The position numbers and the translations under genes are program-made. This document shows positions 1 through 56,206 of a stretch of 64,000 nucleotides of DNA, in pieces (position 1 is the stretch's first letter; each line of letters begins with the position of its first letter). The notes under the pieces are model-generated. The model worked only from the letters and a program-made list of their open reading frames with translations, did not search any database and had not been told where the DNA came from. Source of the DNA: Branchiostoma floridae (lineage: Eukaryota; Chordata; Leptocardii; Amphioxiformes; Branchiostomatidae); the NCBI RefSeq assembly GCF_000003815.2, contig NC_049990.1, positions 16,153,548-16,217,547 of the forward strand, in the 5' to 3' direction.

Positions 1-2896
1 GGTAACCAATACTAGAAAAACATAGCTATTTATTATTAACAATACTATTTACATTATAATAATAACTCTTCACCAAACTGGACTTTTCTTATCTTTATTT
101 ATCACAGAAACATTGTTACAATGACGATTTGATTAGATGAGTATCTGTTACAGTGTGTACAAACTTATTTCAAATACAAAAATATATTTCGTTTCACTTC
201 CTAAATATTTTTAAAGTATTGGAAGAAGTTGACACATAAACAATATTAATTGCATTATTTATGTGCAGTAAATGTGACCACATGCTATCAATAGCCTAAT
301 AAAATGTTGGAACATGGCACAAGCGGGCTCCTCTTCTGAGTACAGAAAGGAAATGTTTTATAACATTTAGTTATGACGTAGAAAATTTCAATTGTAAAAT
401 GTACCTTTATTAACATTTACAAACAAATTGTTTTTTTCTCTTCTTAATAAATGACAACAATACAGGTAAGTAAGATGTGTTTCCTTTTATAACAGGCCAG
501 GTAAGACGCCGTACAGGTAAGTAAGGTGAGTTTCCTTTTATAGCAGACCAGGTAAGACACCGTACAGGTGAGTAAGGTGTGTTTCCTTGACTACAGACTA
601 GGTAAGACACCTTACAGGTGAGCAACGTGTATTTCCTTTCATTACAGACCAGGTAAGACATCGTACAGGTGAGTAACGTGTATTTCCTTTGATTACAGAC
701 CAGGTAAGACACCGTACAGGTGAGTAAGGTGTGTTTCCTTGACTACAGACTAGGTAAGACACCGTACAGGTGAGTAACGTGTATTTCCTTTGATTACAGA
801 CCAGGTAAGACACCGTACAGGTGAGTAAGGTGTGTTTCCTTGACTACAGGCCAAGTAAGACACCATACAGGTAAGTAAAGTGTGTTTCCTTTGATCACAG
901 ACCAGGTAAGACACCGTTCAGGTGAGTAACGTGTATTTCCTTTGATTACAGACCAGGTAAGACACCATACAGGTGAGTAACGTGTATTTCCTTTGTTCAC
1001 AGACCAGGTAAGACACCGTACAGGTGAGTAACGTGTATTTCCTTTCATTACAGACCAGGTAAGACACCGTACAGGCGATTAAGGTGTGTTTCCTTTTATA
1101 ACAGACTAGGTAAGACACCGTACAGGTAAGTAACGTGTATTTCCTTTCAGTACAGACCAGGTAAGACACCGTACAGGTGAGTAAGGTGTGTTTCCTTTTA
1201 TAACAGACTAGGTAAGACACCGTACAGGTAAGTAACGTGTATTTCCTTTCAGTACAGACCAGGTAAGACACCGTACAGGTGAGTAAGGTGTGTTTCCTTG
1301 ACTACAGACTACGTAAGACACCGTACAGGTGAGTAACGTGTATTTCCTCTGATTACAGACCAGGTAAGACACCATACAGGTGAGTAACGTGTATTTCCTT
1401 TCATTACAGACCATGTAAGACACCGCACAGGTGAGTAAGGTGTGTTTCCTTTGTCTATAGACCAGATAGGGTATTACACAGGTGAGTAAGGCGTCTTTCC
1501 TTTGCCTATATACCATATAGGCCATTATACAGGTGAATAAGGTGTCTTTCCTTTGCCTATAGACCAGATAGGGTATTATGCAGGTGAGTAAAGCAACTTT
1601 CCTTTGCCTGTAGACCAGATAGGGTATTATACAGGTAAGTAAGGTGTCTTTCCCTTGCCTATATACCAGATAGGCCATTATACAGGTGAATAAGGTGTCT
1701 TTCCTTTGCCTATAGACCAGATAGGCCATTAAACAGGTGAGTAGGGTGTCTTTCCTTTGCCTATAGACCAGATAGGCCATTATACAGGTAAGTAAGATGT
1801 CTTTACTTTGCCTATAGACCAGACAGGGTATTATACAGGTGAGTAAAGCAACTTTCCTTTGCCTATATACTACCATATAGGCCATTATACAGGTGAGTAA
1901 AGCGTCTTTCCTTTGCCTATAGACCAGATGAAATACACGTTACTCACCTGTATGGTGTCTAACCTGCTCTGTAATCAAAGGAAATACACGTTACTCACCT
2001 GTATGGTGTCTTACCTGGTCTGTAATCAAAAGAAATACACGTTACTCACCTGTACGGTGTCTTACCTGGTCTGTTATAAAAGGAAACACACCTTACTTAC
2101 CTGTATGGTGTCTTACCTGGCCTGTAGTCAAGGAAACACACCTTACTCACCTGTACGGTGTCTTACCTGGTCTGTAATCAAAGGAAATACACGTTACTCA
2201 CCTGTACGGTGTCTTACCTAGTCTGTAGTCAAGGAAACATACCTTACTCACCTGTACGGTGTCTTACCTGGTCTGTAATGAAAGGAAATACACGTTGCTC
2301 ACCTGTAAGGTGTCTTGCCTACTCTGTAGTCAAGGAAACACACCTTACTCACCTGTACGGTGTCTTACCTGGTCTGCTATAAAAGGAAACACACCTTACT
2401 TACCTGTACGGCGTCTTACCTGGCCTGTTATAAAAGGAAACACACCTTACTTACCTGTATTGTTGTCATTTATTAAGAAGAGAAAAAAACAATTTGTTTG
2501 TAAATGTTAATAAAGGTACATTTTACAATTGAAATTTTCTACGTCATAACTAAATGTTATAAAACATTTCCTTTCTGTACTCAGAAGGGGAGCCCGCTTG
2601 TGCCATGTTTCAACATTTTATTAGGCTATTGATAGCATGTGGTCACATTTTACTGCACATAAATAATGCAATTAATATAAAAATAAAAATATTTAGGAAG
2701 TGAAACGAAATACATTTTTGTATTTGAAATAAGTTTGTACACACTGTAACAGATACTCATCTAATCAAATCGTCATTGTAACAATGTTTCTGTGATAAAT
2801 AAAGATAAGAAAAGTCCAGTTTGGTGAAGAGTTATTATTATAATGTAAATAGTATTGTTAATAATAAATAGCTATGTTTTTCTAGTATTGGTTACC
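1..2896. mobile_element. Long fold-back (inverted-repeat) element with minisatellite core
   Basis: The first bases (GGTAACCAATACTAG...) recur as their reverse complement at the right end (...CTAGTATTGGTTACC, ending at 2896). The two arms match over roughly 450 bp with small indels; for example, the left arm has about 30 extra or different bases near 215-245. Between the arms lies a 51-bp tandem repeat, in one orientation from about 465 to 1920 and inverted from about 1925 to 2470, so the whole element is close to a giant palindrome. No transposase-like reading frame is visible. It looks like a non-autonomous fold-back DNA element. The left boundary coincides with the window edge, so a target-site duplication cannot be checked. 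It probably sits in an intron of the mucin-like gene that follows. Confidence 0.8.
465..2470. repeat. 51-bp minisatellite built from splice-site-like motifs
   Basis: About 28 units in one orientation (465-1920) and about 10-11 inverted units (1925-2470). Each unit carries a donor-like CAG|GTGAGT, then a pyrimidine-rich TTTCCTTTGATTACAG acceptor-like stretch, a 5-base ACCAG, a second donor-like GTAAGA and a TACAG. A diverged subfamily (core CCAGATAGGCCATTATACAG) occupies about 1440-1920 near the symmetry centre. Because 51 is a multiple of three, several frames stay open and read as 17-residue peptide repeats on both strands. I regard these as artefacts of the period, not genes. Confidence 0.9.
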
Positions 2897-3986
2897 TGCC
2901 CCTATTCAGGTTTATAACACTAATGTGTCTGAGCCTTTTGTACATTAATTGGGCACTGAGGTGAATCAATATCCATATTTGCACTAAGTTCCTCAAACCT
3001 GGGTAATAATAGCACAGAAAAAATGACCACGTTGTAATTATCAGTCAGATGATAGCACTATGAAATGAAAATCTTCTTCAGAATTCACTCTAAAATGGTT
3101 GTTTGAGAAGCTATGCTACAACAGTCCCTCCCGCGATACTTATAGAACAGTCCCGCAAGGAGGTCACATGACTAGTGCCCGCCATTTTGAATTGCTATAG
3201 TTAAAGTATGGTAGTATCGTCGCCGTACATTTTGACCAAAAACAGGGACTTAAAATGCTTGTAAAGCACGGAAACTCCGTACACATCAATGGGACACCAT
3301 CTTGAACATGTTTGTGGCGGTAGGTTTAGGTGTCGTTGCGCGACGGCCGATATTTTTGTGGATATAGTGGGCATTCGCTAAAAAGACATTTTGCTGGGCG
3401 TTCGCTAAAAAGACCATCGAGAATCGAAAACTTTGATTTATGTCACTTCGGGTCAATGGATTGACTTGAAACTCAGGATTAATACATGGGAGCACAACGT
3501 GGACATATTCCAAGCAAAAAAATGAGATTCGTGCAGCGCGGACTTCTCTAGAGTGGGCGTTTGTGGGCATTCGCTAAAAAGACCATGCGCGATAGCAGGT
3601 ATGAGTTTAAAATTAATTTTTTTGGACTTTTGACCAATAGATCCATTTCTAGCACCCGCGGTCATTTGGAAATTAAGTAACTCCCACGAGAGGACACTAT
3701 AGCATAATTTTACGAGATATTCCGCAAAATGAGGTTTGCGATGGGCATCCAGTTCTGGATTGGCAATGGCTGACACTTTTGCTGACATCAGGTGTTCGTT
3801 GGGTCACGTGTTCGTCAGGTCATGCGATTGCTCATTGGAACTTGAAGTAGGCCATATTAACGACAGCTAACGCTCTCGAACACATTTTAGATTTATATCA
3901 ACCATGTTATCAGCCAACAAAGACGAACGTTCATACAGACAAATTATAGGATTGATGTACATGTAATTTTCTTCTTACCGATGTAG
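2897..3986. other. Intronic sequence, no coding exon seen
   Basis: About 1.1 kb between the fold-back element and the first recognisable exon of the mucin-like gene. The motif GGGC(A/G)TTCGCTAAAAAGAC occurs about three times at 3365-3590, suggesting a degenerate repeat. Open frames here are short and show no recognisable domain. Confidence 0.5.
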
Positions 3987-6900
3987 GAAGTAAACATGCC
4001 ACTGTGTTCACCGCCATCGTGTCCGCCGAGCGAAACCGCGTACCGATTCAGATCAATCTGGTGGGAACGTCAGGTCTGCAGCTCCACGTTAACGGGACGG
4101 ACATCAACATGGCGGTGTTCAGAGACAGCGAGTACGAACTGGAAGTGGACGACAGCGCAGTTGTGAGCGGTCCTGAACAGAACACGCTTCTCGTCGTCTT
4201 CTTCAATGGGATTACTGCAAAAATTACGGCAGACAAGGTTAGGATATGCTTAAAAAGTATCTTAACTGACGTCATGACAAGCATCGTACCTACGTTCATT
4301 TGGGCGGTGGCAGGTATCAACTTCTTGTCACCATTGATCGATTCATAATTAAGGTCACCATTTTAGATGATCATTGCGTGTCAGAAAACAGGTGAATTCT
4401 GGTTGAAGGCCGATGGGAATGTCCGAAATTCATCATGTCGTTTAAAAAAAAATAGACTTGAAAATCTTTTTGGTAACATACCTCCAATTACTTACAGTGT
4501 GATGGGCTCTTTAACGTGCTCGTCAAACACATGACCTCCATTTAAACTCCTATCGGAGGCATGTCCGCAACCGAAGCTAGGAACTCATTTTCACCAAATG
4601 AGGAAATTTGTGTAAAGTGCCTTACCCTAGGAAGTGTACAGGGTTGCTGTAATATAAACAGATCTGATCCCGGGCTAGGACCTCTGGGTCATAGGCTAAA
4701 CTCCCTGCCGTTACGTAACTTGACCCCACTTTATACTCAATCACATCACGCCATTAAAGACTAAATCATATCACGATTTCCATTCTACAGGCGATGTTAT
4801 TTGTGCAGTTCTCAGCCCCACCAGAGTACATGAACAGAACGCAAGGTCTGCTGGGAAGATGGGACGGTGACAAGTCAAACGACTTCGAGGCCTTTGATGG
4901 AACCATGCTTTCCGCCAACGCCTCGGAGAGACAGCTGTATGAGATATTCGGGCAGTCATGTAAGTGAAATTCGATACCACCATGTTCTATGCAAATAACA
5001 AGAACATTCTAGCATTAACCTGCATTTAAACCTCATGTAGAAGATACGTCTTGCGGTTCAGAAATCTTAGAGTTTTTTTTTGTGTGAGATGAGTAAAGAA
5101 GGCGAAAAAAATACATGCGTCAGGGCCAATTGATTAACCCAATTGGACCGGGAGGGCGGCAGGTATCGACTTCCTGGGAACCTTTGACCCACTCATGACG
5201 TCACACTTCCCTAAGATCAGTGCGCGTCATGAAAGTAAGCCTAATAAGGGCCGATTAATACATTAAAAATTATTATGCATAAACTTTGTATCATCTGCAG
5301 GGCAAGTAACGGAAGAAGATGGACCCAAGAAGTCGCTTTTCTACTACGCCAACGGGGTGGGTCCTAAAAACTTCACCCTCGCGTCATACGAGCCGGCCTT
5401 TACAGACGAGATCGTGTTCGCCAGTGCCGAGCTGGAGCAGCAGGCGCGGACTGTGTGTGGGGAGGACAAGACCTGCCTGTTCGACATCAGCCATACTGGA
5501 GACGTGCAGGTCGGGGAGGTGTCGCTGGCGGCGTTGCAGACTTTTGAAGACGAGGTATCGGGGAGAGGTAGGAGTGATCTGTTGCATAGGCTCTTTCACA
5601 CGTCCGAGTACGCTCGTACAGCGACAGGAGTTGCAGGTAATATGTCAAAAGTGAAGTCCCCTGACTTGCAAAAAGTTCTTGTCTCAACCATGCATATGCA
5701 TAGCAATGTCCAGAAGTGCTTTGTTTATGTCCATAAGGGCCTTTACCTTTTGACATTTTACCCATAGTTTCTGTCGCTGCACATGAGTACTCGGAATTGT
5801 TGAAGAGCTTGATAATATTCGTCTATCTGTAGAGTGATCTCCACCCAAAACTTTAAAATGTTAAATTGCGGCTTACCCACAATGTTTCTACTCAACAGCA
5901 CCAGTATTTGTCAAGGAATTGGCAATCAATTACTTCGATGACGTCGATTTCTTTAAGACACGTGACTCAATAACCAGTGAATCAAAAGCTACAGAAAATC
6001 TGCAGCGTCCCCCGACTCTTCTTGGGGTACATTTAGTAGATTTAGGCCAAAGTATCATACAAGAACTCAAAGCACCGTTATATCCTATAGAGACACTTTA
6101 TTGAATAATAGAAGTGCAGCATAATTTTATTTTGTTTACTCCATTTACCGAAGACGCAAATGATGAGTCATGACTACATAAATGTATCCCTTTTAAATAT
6201 TTGCAATGTTATGCCATTTTTCCATGCAGAAAGTTTCCCGCCGGCGATATCCGGGCCGGTTGCTTTGTATCTCTCACCCGGGGAGGTGGTAGAGATAGAG
6301 CTGAACGCTACGGACCCTCAGGATCTACCGATCACGTTTGAGATAGGACCTGACGTACCGCCAGATGTCGTCTTAATCACCAATGGCAACTACGCAAAAG
6401 TAACTTGGAACGTCACAGATAAAACTGTCTTTAATCTTCAGGTAATGCTACCTTTCATACACATCACAATAATCTATTATAGCTGCACATGTGTAACATC
6501 TTATCACATTTATGCCCCAGATCCCTTTATAACAATATATGACTAGAAAGTGACGTTAGTGCCGAGTTGAATAACAAAAACACCCCTGCAGTTCCTGAAC
6601 CAACGGCTAGGCGACGCTCACATATACCATGTGCCACTGTCTGCCGACCCCAAATGCCATCTAACACTGAAAATGAAAACCATTTCCAAAACAGGGTATA
6701 TGAAAACTGGAAACCCTTTGTAGTGCAATGAAAAGCCCCTAGGAGGCCCACAAATAATCATCACAATCCAAACACGATAACTACTTCAAACAGTAGTACA
6801 CATGCATACGGACATTCCGTTTCACTGAGGTAATAACAGTACATATCTTTTATGACGAACAGGTGACGGCGATAAACTCCCGAAACAGCTCTACCGAGTA

Positions 6901-9900
6901 CCGGCCTGTCCTGTACCTGTGTTCCTGCATGCATGGTGGCCGCTGTAACGCCAGCAACGATCTAGATCCGTCGCTTGTGGGATATGATGATAGGTGAGCA
7001 ACTTTTGAGTTGTTTCTTTGAGTTTGAAGGCTGCAAAAGATTAATATAGTCGACAAAGCTATACAAGCCAGCAGCTGTGTGTTTCATACAAACAAGCACA
7101 ATTTTAAGAAAAAAAGATGTCAAAATGTCGAGAATGGACGCGAAATAGACGCGATCACCACAAATAGCTTTTTATGAATCGTAATCATTTGCACATTTCT
7201 TTGTATTTTACCCGTGTGTCACGCGTCTGAGTGTGGTCGCAGTGCAGTGGGAAACTGAGAAAAAAATCGTAAAATTGCCGCAATAATTTGTCGCCAACAG
7301 GCGTGGCTCAGTGAGATACCTGCGCTTATCATTTACATACGGGCAGTAGAGAATATAATACAGTCTTGTCAAATCATAGCGCATCAGTCAAATCGATCGT
7401 GAAAATCTCTCCTTTTGTACTAGATTCGTCATCCAGACATGTCTGTGCGAGGAGGGGTACACTGGGGAGCACTGTGAGAGTGACATCGACGCATGCGCGG
7501 AGAACTTTGACCCATGTTTCCCAGGAGTCATCTGTACGGATCTCCCGCCACCTGCCGGCTTGGAGGACGGTTACACGTGTGGTGACTGTCCCCTGGGGTA
7601 CGAAGGCAACGGGACGTCTTGCCAAGGTGAGCATTCTTAAGAAATGTATACACATATGACTGTGGTTTATAAAATGCCTCCATTTGTCGCTCAAACTGAG
7701 TACAATATAGAGTACGCGTTGCAAACTGGGCTTGCTTGGAACTGTTGGTTCTACGGACTCTACAGATAACATAGAATTTGAAGGATTTTGTATTCTAGCG
7801 CAGATTTACGTAGCAATGTTGGTACAAAATTTAAGATAACATAAAATTTGAAGGATTTTGTATTCTAACGCAGATTTACGCAGCAATGTTCGCTGAGGTA
7901 AATTTTCTTTTAATATGTTTCTCCGCAAGACATCGACGAATGTGAGTTGGAAGAGGCAACATTGTGCCAACACATCTGTGTGAACTATGTGGGCAACTTC
8001 ACTTGCGGCTGCAATGAAGGATTCAAGGTGGCCGAGGACGGACATTCATGTATAGGTAAAACAAACTTAAGCATTCAAAACCCGTACTCTGTTTTAGTTT
8101 GGAAGACTTCAATCGTTCAACTTATTTCTTCTGAAGTCTCTCACTTGTTTACTGCGTGTTTTGTGTTTCCTAAGAATCCATGCCATTCTAGCGGCATAAA
8201 GTCCTCTGATCGCCTGTATATTATGTTACTGTCCTATTTGCACCGGTGTCCGTAGGGACAGTGTAGCCCTGGCCGGGTTACGAAGCCACAAATTTGTCCC
8301 GATGGACTGTCAGGTATCTTTGGGGACCTTTCAGCGTTTTCACGACTAGGTCACAACGTCGAGATCTATTTGTCACTGGGTCCTGTGTTGATTTTAAATA
8401 CGAGTACTGAAAACAACACAGGGCCCCGCGATGCCCCCAAATAGCCTGATAGCCACAGGGTGTCCCACGGGCAATGTAGGAGTAACGGCCGAAAGTGCAA
8501 AAAAATACAGCCCAAAAGCTACCGGGAGGGACAAAATGGGACCGTAGCATTAACGGGTGACATGTTGACAGAATATTTGACAGGGAAGCGAATTGAAGCT
8601 AGAATAAGATATCATAGATGCAAGGCTAATTTTGTGTTCCTCTCCCGCCAGACTTAGATGAGTGTGCACTGCCCAACAACTGCAGTCAGCTGTGTGAAAA
8701 CACGAACGGGTCGTACACGTGTGGATGTTTTGCGGGGTTTAAGTTCGACCAAGACGGCCAATGTCAACGTAAGTGTAGCTTAAGTTAGTTTAGTTTAAGA
8801 CATATTAGTTTAAGACGTTCTGCAATTCATTGTCCTGAATAGTTACACCAGGGCGGCACATAAATTGACAATACAGTTTGCTGTACAACTAAATGGTCTT
8901 TCTGCCAATGTTTCAGAAGTCCTTGCTTTTTAAGCTTCCTCTGGACGAGAATCTGGATCTAAGTCCCACCGCTTGGTGGCGCTCCAGTGAGAAGACTGTG
9001 GTCCCAAACGTTACTGCGCTTGTATCCCCCTCGTCATAACGCAGCTACTGGCTTTGGTCGTAATGATAATCTAAGGGTTGAATTATGTAGTGCAACAACG
9101 CATAACAGTAATAAGTAATAAAGATTCTGTATCAGAATCGCTTAAAGGCCAACGAATAAAAAATAAAAACGTATTGAGCAAAATTTCTTTGTTATAGCCG
9201 AAAAGAGTTGTACAGACGAGGACAACCCTGAGTGTGACCTGACCACAAGCTGGTGCACTATGAATGACACTGGCCATGCGCAGTGCATCTGTTTCAACGG
9301 ATTTGAGGTGGTTGAAAACGGGACCATGTGTCAAGGTAAGCACATGATATGTCACCCTTCATTTTTATATTTTTTTTTACAACGGATAGCAAAACCTGTT
9401 ATGTTTTTACTAATGTGCATGGCTCCGCCATATTTGTGACGTCATGGTTCTCAACCAATCATTGAATGGCTTACCCAGACCAGTCACAAGTTAGAAGTCA
9501 TAACGTCAACTACGTCAATACGTCACCCACGTCACTTCGGCTCTCGTATAGTTATATTCTTAACCCCAACCCTAACCCTTACCCTAACCCCTAACTCTAG
9601 CACTAACCCTTTCCCTAACCCTTAGCACTAACCCCTAATCGTAACCCTAACCCTAACCCTAACCAGAACCCTAACCCTAACCCTAACCCTAACACTAACC
9701 CTAACCCTAACCCTAGCCCTAACCCTAACCAGAACCCTAGCTATGGCACGTACAGGCAGTTACAGGCAAATTTCTGAGTGGAATGCCCTGCTTGGCACGG
9801 TGGTAATTGCCTGTTGTATCCAACTTTCGTCAGTATCTAACTTTCGTAATATGCCGAATCCTGGATATCCAGGAATCGTCCTGAGCAGAAGGACGATTCC

Positions 9901-24269: not shown

Positions 24270-24560
24270 GTTGAGTCGTACTAGGTTCTTCTGCATGACA
24301 CACCTGCAACAGGGATGGGACAGGCATGTCATATCAGTGGCACATCACAGAATGTCAAATCTACCTAACACCAGATCCTTCTGTATGACACACCTGCAAC
24401 AGGGATGGGACAGGCATGTCATATCACAAAATGTCAAACCTACCTAACACCAGGTTCTTCTGCATGACACACCTGCAACAGGGATGGGATAGGCATGTCA
24501 TACCACAGGAATGTCAAACCTACCTAACACCAGTTTCTTCTGCATGACACACCCATGACA
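24270..24560. repeat. Tandem repeat of about 85-90 bp, three-plus copies
   Basis: Each unit contains CACCAGGTTCTTCTGCATGA or a variant, CACACCTGCAACAGGGATGG and GACAGGCATGTCATA(T/C), plus a short A-rich spacer. Noncoding, between the patatin-like and PUDP genes. Confidence 0.8.
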
Positions 24561-29200: not shown

Positions 29201-32200
29201 GTCTATTTCTACTCAAACCATTTTCTGTATGCAACTTGGCAGTTGAATTGTCCAACATTTCTGATAAACAGGTTGGATGACTTAAGCAAGAAGATGGTTT
29301 TTTTTATTTATCGGCTAGGTGTGAGAGCTGAGAAAATTTTAAAAGATTTCTGGGACTAATTTATTCATTTATGTTGCCTCTGTAGGTTGCCACCATAGTT
29401 TGGAACTACAAAGCCACTGATGACGTAGTAAAGGTTGAGGTGTGGGACGTCGTTGACAAAGCCAAGAAACGCAAGAAATCGGACTCGCTCAAGCTAGAGA
29501 ACGATCCAGACCTCGCAGACGAGTTTGCGCAGGCTCTCGACGCTGAATTCCTCGACGTGTACAAGAACTGTAACGGCGTGATAATGATGGTTGATATCAC
29601 CAAGCAGTGGACGTTCGATTACGTGGCACGCGAGTTACCCAAAGTGCCCGCGCACATCCCCGTATTGATTCTGGCGAATTTTCGCGACATGGGCGAGCAT
29701 CGTGTCATCAGCGCCGACCACCTCATCTATTGGATCGAGGGGCTGGACAGACCGGAGGGTGCGGCGGACATACGGTTCGCCGAGTCTTCCATGAGGAACG
29801 GGTTTGGACTGAAGTATCTCCACAAGTTCTTCAACATCCCCTTTCTTCAGCTACAAAGGGAGACGTTGCTACGGCAACTGGAGACAAACAAGCGGGACAT
29901 GATGGCGATGATCGAGGAACTCGGCATCCACTCGGAATCGGAGGAGCAGAATTACGACTTGTACATCCAGGGATTGGCCAAGAAGAGGAGGCCGACGCCC
30001 ACCCGACCCACGCACCTTCCCACGGAAGCCCAGAATGGCGGCGGGAATGCCGAGAACCAATCAGATTCGGCCGCGACAACGCCCGCACGATCCAACCTCT
30101 CCACTCCTGCAACCACGCCATCCATGTCGAATACAGCCACCCCAGCCACCACCCCAGGGGGGTACACCCCTGCGTCAACCCCCGGGGGTTACACACCCTC
30201 CCCCACCCCTGGGGCAACCACGCCAGCCACCACCCCAGCCCAGGAGAACAAGCCAACCCCACAGAAGCAAGGTTTCATGTCGAGATTGTTCGGGAACTCC
30301 AGCCCTGCCCAGCAGGACACAGCTGCCCCTGACCCAGGGGCTGGCACCACCACCCCAACCTCCCCACCCTCGGGGGCCATCAAGGCCGTGGAGGACTTTG
30401 TTCCTGATGAAGGTTTAGACAGCCGGTTTTTGGACGAACCGGAACCTTCCAAACCTGCACCGGTCCGGACTGCGGATCCAGCCAATATGGAGGACTCAGA
30501 CAGTGATGTTGAAGGTAATATTTATTAGTTTATTCATTTGTTTGTTTGAGCAATGATGAAAGTTTTTATTAGATTGTAACATCCACCCACTAGTTTTTTA
30601 CGTCTCCTCTGACATGCTGTTCTAACTCTGTGTCACTTCAGTCTTCGAGTGCCACAAAGGAGAGTATTGTATGGGGAGTTCCAGGGGTATCCTTCCTCAG
30701 AAAATGTTGAATTTCATAACTCTGACTCTCTAAAACACTATTTCTTGCATTTTGATGTGCAAATTTTGTGGAATACGGCAGTTACTTTCAGACAGGTCAC
30801 TTGTGATGTAATAATATCCATGTTCAATCAGAATGTTCTGCTTGTCAGAGAATCTGCTCCCCAGGGTAAGGGGTGTCTTTAGGTGCCTTGCCTTAAAGGG
30901 GGTCAAATTCCTTTATTCTTTTTAGAACCGTGCATCAAAATGCATAGATGACTGTTTCCCTATAGTCTGGCAAACATCTCCAATTAAATGTGTGGCCCAT
31001 ATGAATTACTTCGTTACTTCTTTCAGAATATCTATAAAAGCAGCTAGTAAAGCGGGGATCAAACTTCAGAATGCCTGTCAAAGCACATTTTCAATCCTGA
31101 AGACACAACTGTACAGCTTGGGGCAAGTATGTGTGTGGATATTCAATTATGCTAATCTATTAATAAGAGATGGACCATGTTTATGAGACTGGCCAATCTC
31201 TACAGGGTAAGATACTATGCATAGTAGGTTATGTAATGTAATGCAATACTCTCTTCCTATGCAATGTGAAATAAAACACCTTTTTATCTTCATTTCTCAT
31301 GTTCTGACAATAGGAAACCCCATGGTGGCAGGCTTTGCAGAGGAGATCGATTCGGAGGATGAGATGCCCAATCAGGCGCCCGCGAAATTGGCGTCCGCAA
31401 GTCTGGACATCGACCTTTCCAGTGACGAAGACGAACCCGTGGTCGCCAAGGACGCAGACATCGAAGACGACCTACCAACCCCCATCCTACAGCCACAGAA
31501 AACAACAGATTCCCTCAAACCCCTTTCTGATCCCTTCACTACAAAACCTCACACTGTGTCAAACGATGCAGAAGAGGTCCAAGAGACTGTCCAATCAGAC
31601 GGTGATGAGGACACGAATCAACCAATCATAGCTGCCGATGTAGACATTTCCAGTGAGGATGAACAGAAGGGACTTGATGATTGGTTAGGAGGAGGAGGGG
31701 GGGAGGGTAAAGTTGATGGGTTGGTATCAAAGGTAGATGATATCAGCTTAGATGGAGCGGAAGCTGCAGTAGAACTTAAGAAAGAGGATTTCGATTTCTT
31801 AGAGAAAGTCAGCAAGCCGTTGTCAGGACAAGAGTCGGGAGAAGGGGACAGGGAAGACATCAGCCAGAAGAAGAAGAAGAAGAAAAAGAAAGATCGCAGG
31901 AGTGATGGAGAGGAAGATGGAGAGAAGTCCCACAAGAAGAAGCACAAGAAACACCGGGAGAAAGAGAAGGAGAAAGTGTCAGATGAAGGAGAAGGGAAGA
32001 AGAAAAAGAAGAAGCACAAAAAGAAGGAAGTGGACGAATTGGAAGAGTTTCTGGGGGGTGGGGTAGGTAAAGGGGGAGGGGGTGGGGAAGGGTACGAGAT
32101 ATTTTGATTGGTAGCCAAGAGCCATCCGAAGCACACTGTACTTAAAATAAGACATAATTTAAGAGATGAAAAAAAGCCAAAGTTTCTTACAATGTCCTAA

Positions 32201-53214: not shown

Positions 53215-56206
53215 GGTGACCGTAACACAGGGAAGACCTGCCTGTTCCACCGACTACAGGGACACAAATTTGTGGAGGAATATCTCCCTACTCATGAACT
53301 ACAGGTGAGACATTTTGTAGCCACTGCAAGACCATACCCGTAGTCCAATTGCAAACAGCATAAGACAGTGGCATACACATGTACAGAGTTAAATAGGAAC
53401 TAACATCTATTCTATGTCTATTTCCACTCAAACTATTTGAAATCAAAAGCTTCACATCTATTCTATGTCTATTTCCACTCAAACTATTTGAAATCAAAAG
53501 CTACACATCTATTCTATGTCTATTTCCCCTCAAACTATTTGAAATCAAAAGCTACACATCTATTCTATGTCTATTTCCACTCAAACTATTTGAAATCAAA
53601 AGCTACACATCTATTCTATGTCTATTTCCACTCAAACTATTTGAAATCAAAAGCTTTTCCGTATGCAGTCGGAGATAAATATTTTTCACAGATAATTGGG
53701 TTTGCTACCTAAGCAAGAAGTTTTTTATTGTTCGGTAAGATGTGAGAGATTTCTGGGACTAATGTATTCATTTATTTTGCCTCTGTAGGTTGCCACCATA
53801 GTTTGGAACTACAAAGCCACTGATGACGTCGTAAAGGTGGAGGTGTGGGACGTCGTGGACAAAGCCAAGAAACGCAAAAAATCGGACTCGCTCAAGCTTG
53901 AGAACGATCCGGACCTCGCAGACGAGTTGGCACAGGCTCTCGACGCCGAATTCCTCGACGTATACAAGAACTGTAACGGTGTGATCATGATGGTTGATAT
54001 CACCAAGCAGTGGACGTTCGATTACGTGGCACGCGAGCTACCCAAAGTACCCGCTCACATCCCCGTCTTGATACTGGCGAATTTTCGCGACATGGGCGAG
54101 CATCGTGTCATCAGCGCCGACCACCTCATCTATTGGATCGAGGGGCTGGACAGACCGGAGGGTGCGGCGGACATACGGTTCGCCGAGTCTTCCATGAGGA
54201 ACGGGTTCGGACTGAAGTATCTCCACAAGTTCTTCAACATCCCCTTTCTTCAGCTACAGAGGGAGACGTTGCTACGGCAACTGGAGACAAACAAGCGGGA
54301 CATGATGGCGATGATCGAGGAACTCGGCATCCACTCGGAATCGGAGGAGCAGAATTACGACCTGTACATCCAGGGATTGGCCAAGAAGAGGAGGCCGACG
54401 CCCACCCGACCCACCCACCTTCCCACGGAAGCCCAGAACGGCGGCGGGAATGCCGAGAACCAATCAGATTCGGCCGCGACGACGCCCGCACGATCCAACC
54501 TCTCCACTCCCGCCACCACGTCATCCATGTCCAATGCAGCCACTCCAGCCACCACTCCAGGGGGTATACCCCTGCGTCAACCCCCGGGGGTTACACACCT
54601 TCCCCCACTCCTGGGGCAACCACGCCAGCCACCACCCCCGCCCAGGAGAACAAGCCGACCCCACAGAAGCAAGGTTTCATGTCGAGATTGTTCGGGAACT
54701 CCAGCCCTGCCCAGCAGGACACAGCTGCCCATGACCCAGGGGCTGGCACCCCCACCCCAGCCTCCCCACCCACGGGGGCCATCAAGGCGGTGGAGGACTT
54801 TGTTCCAGATGAAGGTTTAGACAGCCGGTTTTTGGACGAACCGGAACCTGCCAAACCTGCACCGGTCCGGACTGCAGATCCAGCAAATATGGAGGACTCA
54901 GACAGTGATGTTGAAGGTAATGATATTACCGGTAATGTTTAACTTTAAGCAGTGATTTTAAGCAATGATAAAAGTTTGAATTAGATTGTTACTTCCACCC
55001 ATTAGTTTTTAGGTCTCCACTTGCAATTGCTATTCTAACTCTGGGTGACTCCAGTCTTCGAGCGCCACAAAGGAGAGGGGCGCCCAAGGGCATCCTCCCT
55101 CAAAAAATGTTGAAATTCATACAACTGTAAATCTCTAAAACACTATCTCTTGCATTTTGAGATGCAAATTTTGTTGAATACAGCAAAGTTAATGTCAGAC
55201 AGGTCATATGCGACATAGTATGATATATAGTATCCCTGGTCAATCAGAATTTTCTGCTTGTCAGAGAATCCATTGTTTTGAGAACAGTGCATCCATTTAA
55301 ATGTTTAGCCCTTACATCATTATGTTTATGTAATAGGTTATGGAAATTGTTTGAAAGAATGCTCTTTTCCTATGAAATAAAACATCTTTTTATTTTCATG
55401 ATCTGTCAATAGGAAACCCCATGGTGGCAGGCTTTGCGGAGGAGATTGATTCAGAGGATGAGATGCCCAATCAGGCTCCTGCGAAATTGGCGTCCGCAAC
55501 GCTGGACATCGACCTTTCCAGTGACGAAGACAAACCCGTGGTCGCCAAGGACGCAGACATCGAAGACGACCTACCAACCCCCATCCTACAGCCACAAAAA
55601 ACAACAGATTCCCTCAAACCCCTTTCTGATCCCTTCACTTCAAAATCTCACACTGTGTCAAGCGATGCAGAAGAGGTCCAAGAGACTGTCCAATCAGACG
55701 GTGATGAGGACACAAATCAACCAATCGTAGCTGCCGATGTAGACATTTCCAGTGAGGATGAACAGAAGGGGCTTGATGATTGGTTAGGAGGAGGAGGGGG
55801 GGAGGGTAAAGTTGATGGGTTGGTATCAAAGGTAGATGATATCAGCTTAGATGGAGCAGAAGCTGCAGTAGAACTTAAGAAAGAGGATTTCGATTTCTTA
55901 GAGAAAGTCAGCAAGCCGTTGTCAGGACAAGAGTCGGGAGAAGGGGACAGGGAAGACATCGGCCAGAAGAAGAAGAAGAAGAAAAAGAAGGATCGCAGGA
56001 GTGATGTAGAGGAAGATGGAGAGAAGTCTCACAAGAAGAAACACAAGAAACACCGGGAGAGAGAAAAGGAGAAAGTGTCAGACGAAGGAGAAGGGAAGAA
56101 GAAAAAGAAGAAGCACCAAAAGAAGGAAGTGGACGAATTGGAAGAGTTTCTGGGGGGTGGGGTAGGTAAAGGGGGAGGGGGTGGGGAAGGGTACGAGATA
56201 TTTTGA
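53215..56206 (+). pseudogene. RABL6: Second RABL6 copy, lacking exon 1 and frameshifted
   Basis: Exons equivalent to RABL6 exons 2-4 lie at 53215-53304, 53789-54916 and 55413-56206. The P-loop GDRNTGKT and the GTPase core are intact and nearly identical to copy 1. No equivalent of exon 1 (48 residues with the start codon) is seen upstream. The large exon is 1128 bp against 1129 in copy 1. A run of six G in copy 1 (30157-30162) is five here (54560-54564), shifting the frame inside the Pro/Thr linker and reaching a stop at 54818-54820. Downstream of the shift the original frame is otherwise open, and the last exon is intact (ends [10 protein letters not shown]...). So it is either a recent pseudogene, an allele carrying one lesion, or a homopolymer sequencing error. 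Confidence 0.7.
53403..53655. repeat. 51-bp tandem repeat in RABL6 copy 2 intron 2
   Basis: About five nearly identical units of 51 bp, each with CACATCTATTCTATGTCTAT, TTCCACTCAAACTATTTGAA and ATCAAAAGCT. Copy 1 has a single related stretch (about 29195-29230). The open frames here are artefacts of a period divisible by three. Confidence 0.9.

Follow-up and report, generated by a model that had tools for sequence, protein, structure and literature searches.

What kind of DNA carries dozens of splice-site-like motifs inside a sequence able to fold back on itself, and how could a gene live with it? This question is raised by the beginning of the window, the whole 64,000-nt stretch of Branchiostoma floridae DNA that was analysed (G000:C12:16153548-16217547), where a sequence-only reading had described a fold-back element with a minisatellite of such motifs. 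The genome searched for copies was the window's own (513 Mb, 431 contigs). Our results make it likely that the stretch is a transposable element of Foldback/Mutator type, in whose arms a mirage-like minisatellite of splice-boundary character was amplified and is tolerated as a set of decoys.

Limits, arms and copies of the transposon

Alignment to other copies showed that the stretch belongs to a fold-back DNA transposon of 4,284 bp (G000:C12:16152853-16157136), of which 3,589 bp lie inside the window (positions 1-3589, no strand assigned) and 695 bp upstream of it (G000:C12:16152853-16153547). The extent of 1-2896 first proposed was too short on both sides, as the repeat also covers about 694 bp after position 2896 and stops at 3589. 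The 15-bp "terminus" of the same reading (GGTAACCAATACTAG) turned out to be internal sequence, an artefact of the window edge cutting through the element. The true ends, which lie further out, are GGGAGGGTC... and CGCATGGTC...; from the alignment with other copies they read GGGAGGGTCTTTTTAGCGAATGCCC and CGCATGGTCTTTTTAGCGAATGCCC. The sole difference between the two ends is in their outermost 5 bp, GGGAG versus CGCAT, after which the common GGTCTTTTTAGCGAATG follows.

For the genome search for target duplications that had been suggested, two-ended copies were collected from 26 merged stretches by a script accepting four end variants, which makes their count a lower bound, and 1 of 14 rows was left out as a mispairing across two neighbouring elements. 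Perfect 9-bp target duplications were found in 11 of the 13 two-ended copies, and their sequences differ from copy to copy. The two copies lacking one are the window copy and C14_14499043, in both of which the left end is altered. Apart from these, the family shows the dispersed copies with constant-length target duplications of FB-type elements, together with the very long inverted repeats and inner tandem repeats of variable copy number that mark this type.

The fold-back structure itself was confirmed by aligning the inverted arms within the window, which gave 213 nt at 100%, 420 nt at 98% and 409 nt at 94%, the last displaced by one repeat unit. Positions 1-460 (+) hold the non-tandem inner portion of the left terminal inverted repeat, as indicated by genome matches of 98-100% identity and by the arm alignment. 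It is followed by an A-type array at 461-1440 (+), whose 51-bp unit (50 bp in some cases) contains a donor CAG/GTGAGT, an acceptor TTACAG/, the 5 nt ACCAG and a donor /GTAAGA, and by a central B-type array of 51-bp units at about 1426-1928 (+), in which the second donor is lost. An inverted A-type array lies at 1930-2459 (-), its outer unit order mirroring that of the left arm, so that this order is common to both arms. The right terminal inverted repeat of about 1.13 kb extends over 2460-3589 (-) and ends in CCATGCG. Overall, 26.8 copies of the unit were found at 461-1822 (+) and 10.5 at 1930-2459 (-), in good agreement with the earlier estimate of about 28 sense and 10 inverted units. By direct reading, the terminal motif TCTTTTTAGCGAA recurs twice in subterminal position at 3368-3415 (-), and close to one end of another element it stands three times; these subterminal repeats are likely transposase-binding sites.

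The same general plan was seen across the family: in each arm the unique repeat of about 1.13 kb comes first and 51-bp units pointing inward come next, with A-type units outermost and B-type units toward the centre. Among the 12 elements whose ends could be classified, B units are more numerous in the GGGAGGG arm in 10, the exceptions being C17_11826888 and C3_56581 (the ends of C14_14499043 are not classifiable); unit counts come from an ungapped scanner that misses 50-bp units and are lower bounds. The opposed arrays are 14-31 bp apart in 18 of 26 stretches, and a transposase gene therefore has no room in those 18. They are wider apart in three, namely C7_16714763 and C3_56581, which hold assembly gaps of 561 and 593 N, and C11_17450438 (about 80 bp), and a single array was seen in the other five. 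A 243-aa minus-strand open frame in the array was taken to be mechanical, the 51-bp unit being 17 codons; in repeats of whole-codon length, chance alone often leaves a frame open. At the gathering threshold, the window had 0 matches to Rfam.

With the 460-bp inner terminal repeat as query, 40 scored matches among 233 candidates showed 98-100% identity, corresponding by pairing to 32 elements, of which 20 stretches were first retrieved. Because these matches are so similar, the family appears to have spread recently. Terminal repeats are 0.9895 identical within copies, 0.9896 and 0.9894 between same-type ends of different copies, and 0.9866 between opposite ends; the equality within and between copies fits a recent burst. 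When 384 bp of the array served as query, 40 of 195 candidates were scored and contained 281 matches; the 150 matches listed fell into 40 array regions, in 25 of which both strands carry arrays, while in 15 a single strand does. Among the 15, 6 were elements known from the terminal-repeat matches, and the terminal repeat adjoins the array in 9 of the remaining 9. In this sample, that is, within the 40 regions among the matches listed, the 51-bp unit is confined to the element, and the 150 of 281 matches listed from 40 of 195 candidates showed no gene from which the unit could have come.

Splice-site likeness of the 51-bp unit

The units were scored with mammalian splice-site frequencies, not trained on amphioxus, and dinucleotide shuffles and random 51-mers served as controls. 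By these frequencies, which may not be those of amphioxus, the A-unit donors reached 12.5 bits (CAG/GTGAGT) and 11.0 bits (CAG/GTAAGA), and their sum was matched by 0 of 20,000 shuffles and 0 of 20,000 random 51-mers. This supported the conclusion that the two donor motifs, both named in the sequence-only reading, are not chance, and for the donors it spoke against scores no better than those of shuffled units. Two acceptors per unit had also been claimed. One is present and modest (8.5 bits by mammalian frequencies, a score that 277 of 20,000 shuffles and 411 of 20,000 random 51-mers attain); the second, TACAG before GTGAGT, scored 1.3 bits and does not stand, the two-acceptor sum being reached by 1,158 of 20,000 shuffles. 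The 5-base pseudo-exon was found as described, with ACCAG read between the acceptor and the second donor. The antisense strand of the A unit showed ordinary splice scores. In the B unit a single strong donor remains, along with an acceptor, and 8 of 20,000 shuffles reached its best-donor-plus-acceptor sum. Among the window's 30 TRF rows with a period of at least 14 (overlapping rows counted separately), those of this array scored highest, followed by the row at 24344-24553, itself mirage-like.

The units, with 3 of 631 left out for containing N, differed by type in how well the motifs are kept. Of the 405 A units, 404 have an intact acceptor AG, 400 the donor-2 GT, 372 the donor-1 AG/GT and 314 the full CAGGTRAGT. 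The 223 B units keep the acceptor AG in 160 and have lost it in 63, and the donor-2 GT is kept in 1. Common variants at the splice columns of A units (n = 10) cost on average 0.15 bits versus 3.09 expected (P 0.0001), or versus 1.55 expected without the AG/GT core (P 0.002); rare variants at these columns are not splice-neutral. When the splice layout was shifted through all 51 positions, its true phase came second in how well it agreed with column diversity.

These results, together with the extreme donor scores and the near-complete retention of the acceptor AG and donor-2 GT, would fit a reading in which the splice-like sites are selected cargo. Arrays of donors with strong U1 complementarity would then bring U1 snRNP to the growing transcript, where it would prevent premature polyadenylation within the AT-rich arms or past them, or would keep intronic insertions harmless in some other way. 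A sense AATAAA is present in 13 of 13 copies, as this reading would have it, although the motif is expected anyway in AT-rich DNA. The variable columns of A units are however linked (r2 up to 0.86), and the variant P values therefore overstate. Splice columns are about as diverse as the others (0.101 versus 0.110) and are variable about as often (9 of 33 versus 4 of 18), and B units, with their frequent loss of the acceptor AG, gave no splice-neutrality signal (P 0.24). The avoidance of damaging splice positions by common A-unit variants is suggestive only, and we hold selection for such a cargo to be unlikely.

Several spacer columns of the unit, outside the splice motifs, are likewise conserved. 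This is consistent with the motifs being DNA-binding repeats of a transposase or host factor, their splice likeness coincidental, and inner tandem repeats are usual in Foldback arms (PMC4079207, PMC3169594). We consider such binding repeats possible but somewhat improbable: two donors so strong in one unit are unexpected by chance, and the terminal motif TCTTTTTAGCGAA was not seen in the unit by reading.

The host intron and the expected behaviour of the array in RNA

The host of the window copy is a mucin-4-like gene, one intron of which, 4,730 nt long, contains the copy with its larger array in sense. The intron, whose ends were placed by eye, starts at G000:C12:16152804 with the donor AAG/GTAGGA and covers positions 1-3986 (+) of the window; the exon ending in this donor stands 49 nt before the element. 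Downstream host exons fall within 3987-5578 (+), where domain matches to the C-terminal part of VWD (about 4794-4901, +, E 4.4e-5) and to C8-3_MUC4 (within 5291-5578, +, E 9.2e-13) were found. Upstream of the window, on the + strand, a NIDO match stood at the cut-off with 25.0 bits (21.7 bits in a longer scan), and a weak VWD start was below the cut-off (E 0.042). The earlier statement that the array runs in the sense of a mucin-like gene was thus borne out, the copy lying between exons of that gene on the same strand. For the other copies, a six-frame scan covered eight flanks of 2.8-4.3 kb, each from a single side of its element, and a Pfam domain above the cut-off was seen in three (CUB in L039, PPDK_N in L050 and DUF4616 in L033), sub-cut-off matches only in three (L036, L042 and L046) and none in two (L032 and L040). 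With three of eight one-sided flanks, the evidence that other copies are intronic is thin.

By mammalian frequencies, all 52 of the sense donors in the host intron that score at least as high as its real donor lie in the array, as do 29 of the 37 acceptors scoring at least as high as the real acceptor. Since the window copy stands between same-strand mucin-like exons, and its donor motifs are not chance, the pre-mRNA would carry dozens of decoys within a foldable palindrome, as the sequence-only reading had supposed.

That reading had also suggested that the element might hide itself by being spliced out. This would make it introner-like, and the splice-like motifs and the 9-bp duplications are both present; inverted repeats and duplications of 3-9 bp are known from some introners (PMC9860276). 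By reading, however, the left edge of the element has no donor and the right edge no acceptor, and the sense sites of the array start more than 1.1 kb inside each end, with those of the far arm in antisense. Splicing at these sites therefore could not take the element out cleanly, and splicing-out was rejected on the anatomy of the element, which leaves introner-like behaviour extremely improbable. Introners, likewise mobile DNA with a part in splicing, turn into introns whose splice sites are located at the boundaries or arise from the target duplication (PMC9860276); here the splice-like sites lie deep inside an element that itself sits inside a larger intron.

We prefer the reading in which the motifs are tolerated decoys. 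The spacing from an acceptor to the next donors gives pseudo-exons of 5 or 21 nt, to which multiples of 51 may be added, and from GTGAGT to the next acceptor it is 30 nt. Exon and intron definition generally needs longer distances than these. With such pseudo-exons and "introns" of about 30 nt, and with part of the array predicted to pair into double-stranded RNA, the donors and acceptors of an intronic array would act as decoys that normally fail. These spacings favour tolerated decoys and leave U1 recruitment as the bold alternative. In its strongest form, the family would have amplified strong U1-binding 5' splice sites, so that intronic copies coat nascent RNA with U1 snRNP as a "sponge" and stay harmless, and it could also seed amphioxus splice-site minisatellites; we regard this as quite unlikely. 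If transcribed, an intronic copy would show in a natural setting how the spliceosome passes over dozens of strong decoys packed closely together, and the locus offers a concrete case for the size limits of exon definition, for U1 occupancy and for a shielding effect of double-stranded RNA.

Transposon class and closest known systems

The 9-bp target duplications agree with the value of about 9 bp for Mutator elements, a range taken in part from PMC4079207 and PMC3169594. Because of these duplications and of asymmetric tips like those of Tm1, a Mutator-like transposase probably moves the element in trans. In the mechanism we propose, a fold-back DNA transposon with no room for a transposase gene would be mobilised by a partner, each arm consisting of the unique terminal repeat of about 1.13 kb and an inner minisatellite that varies in length among copies and is mirrored between arms. 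The 51-bp unit, a mirage-like splice-boundary repeat, was probably captured by the element or grew inside it. Eight of the 27 MULE-domain matches in the genome were examined as candidate autonomous partners, with 2-3 kb on each side; within these stretches none had these ends, the terminal motif or a long repeat match, the best match being 21 bp at 90% (L059, E 0.005). One MULE-domain locus (L055, G000:C9:6718500-6723700) carries inverted repeats of about 358 bp that are 84% identical and may be another Mutator-like element.

Tm1, a Mutator/Foldback family of root-knot nematodes with target duplications of 8-10 and commonly 9 bp, is a close counterpart in the available part of its report (PMC3169594). 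It shares the variable-length composite inverted repeats, inner tandem repeats, short asymmetric end motifs, commonly 9-bp duplications and copies without coding potential. Its repeats are however 13-15 bp long and not described as splice-like there, and some Tm1 copies have a putative Phantom-type transposase, whereas no partner was found among the eight MULE-domain loci examined for the lancelet element, in which end asymmetry is limited to the outermost 5 bp. Tetris, a foldback element of Drosophila virilis, likewise has long arms with a unique outer and a tandem-repeat inner part, no apparent coding capacity and 8-10 bp duplications; it differs in its repeats of about 220 bp, a source of satellite DNA, with no splice motif described in the available part of the report (PMC4079207).

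In amphioxus, intron-exon boundaries duplicated in the manner of a minisatellite are called mirages; many contain AG/GT signals, and they are reported to leave regular splicing undisturbed (PMC3087553, PMC3902484). The 51-bp array shares with them minisatellite-like tandem repeats with splice signals and unstable length. In contrast to mirages, which stand at real exon boundaries of single genes, it is carried by a dispersed transposon. The 40 array regions among the matches listed do not repeat an adjacent real exon-intron boundary, since they are inverted pairs or lie beside the terminal repeat, and the host exons of the window copy are outside the element. The locus joins two known oddities, Foldback transposons and amphioxus mirages. 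The earlier remark that no named family has this design stands in part: the Foldback/Mutator design and mirages are both known, and their combination, a transposon carrying a mirage-like repeat, was not found in the literature searched, which did not take in Repbase.

Other features of the window were also seen. A probable genic mirage lies at about 24300-24553 (-), with tandem 79-bp copies of an acceptor and exon start (CCCATCCCTGTTGCAG/GTGTGTCATGCAGAAG...) directly upstream of an apparent real exon; its presence speaks in favour of the mirage-like reading of the 51-bp unit. A different 51-bp tandem array (5 copies, 98% match) at 53403-53655 is unrelated in sequence by eye, and a TAACCC-like 6-bp repeat array (29 copies, 77% match) lies at 9561-9739, within a 23-Mb contig. 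Two very similar open frames are located at 29386-30528 and 53789-54820 (+), the first with a weak Ras match, and a similar pair follows at 31211 and 55376, pointing to a segmental duplication or an uncollapsed haplotype.
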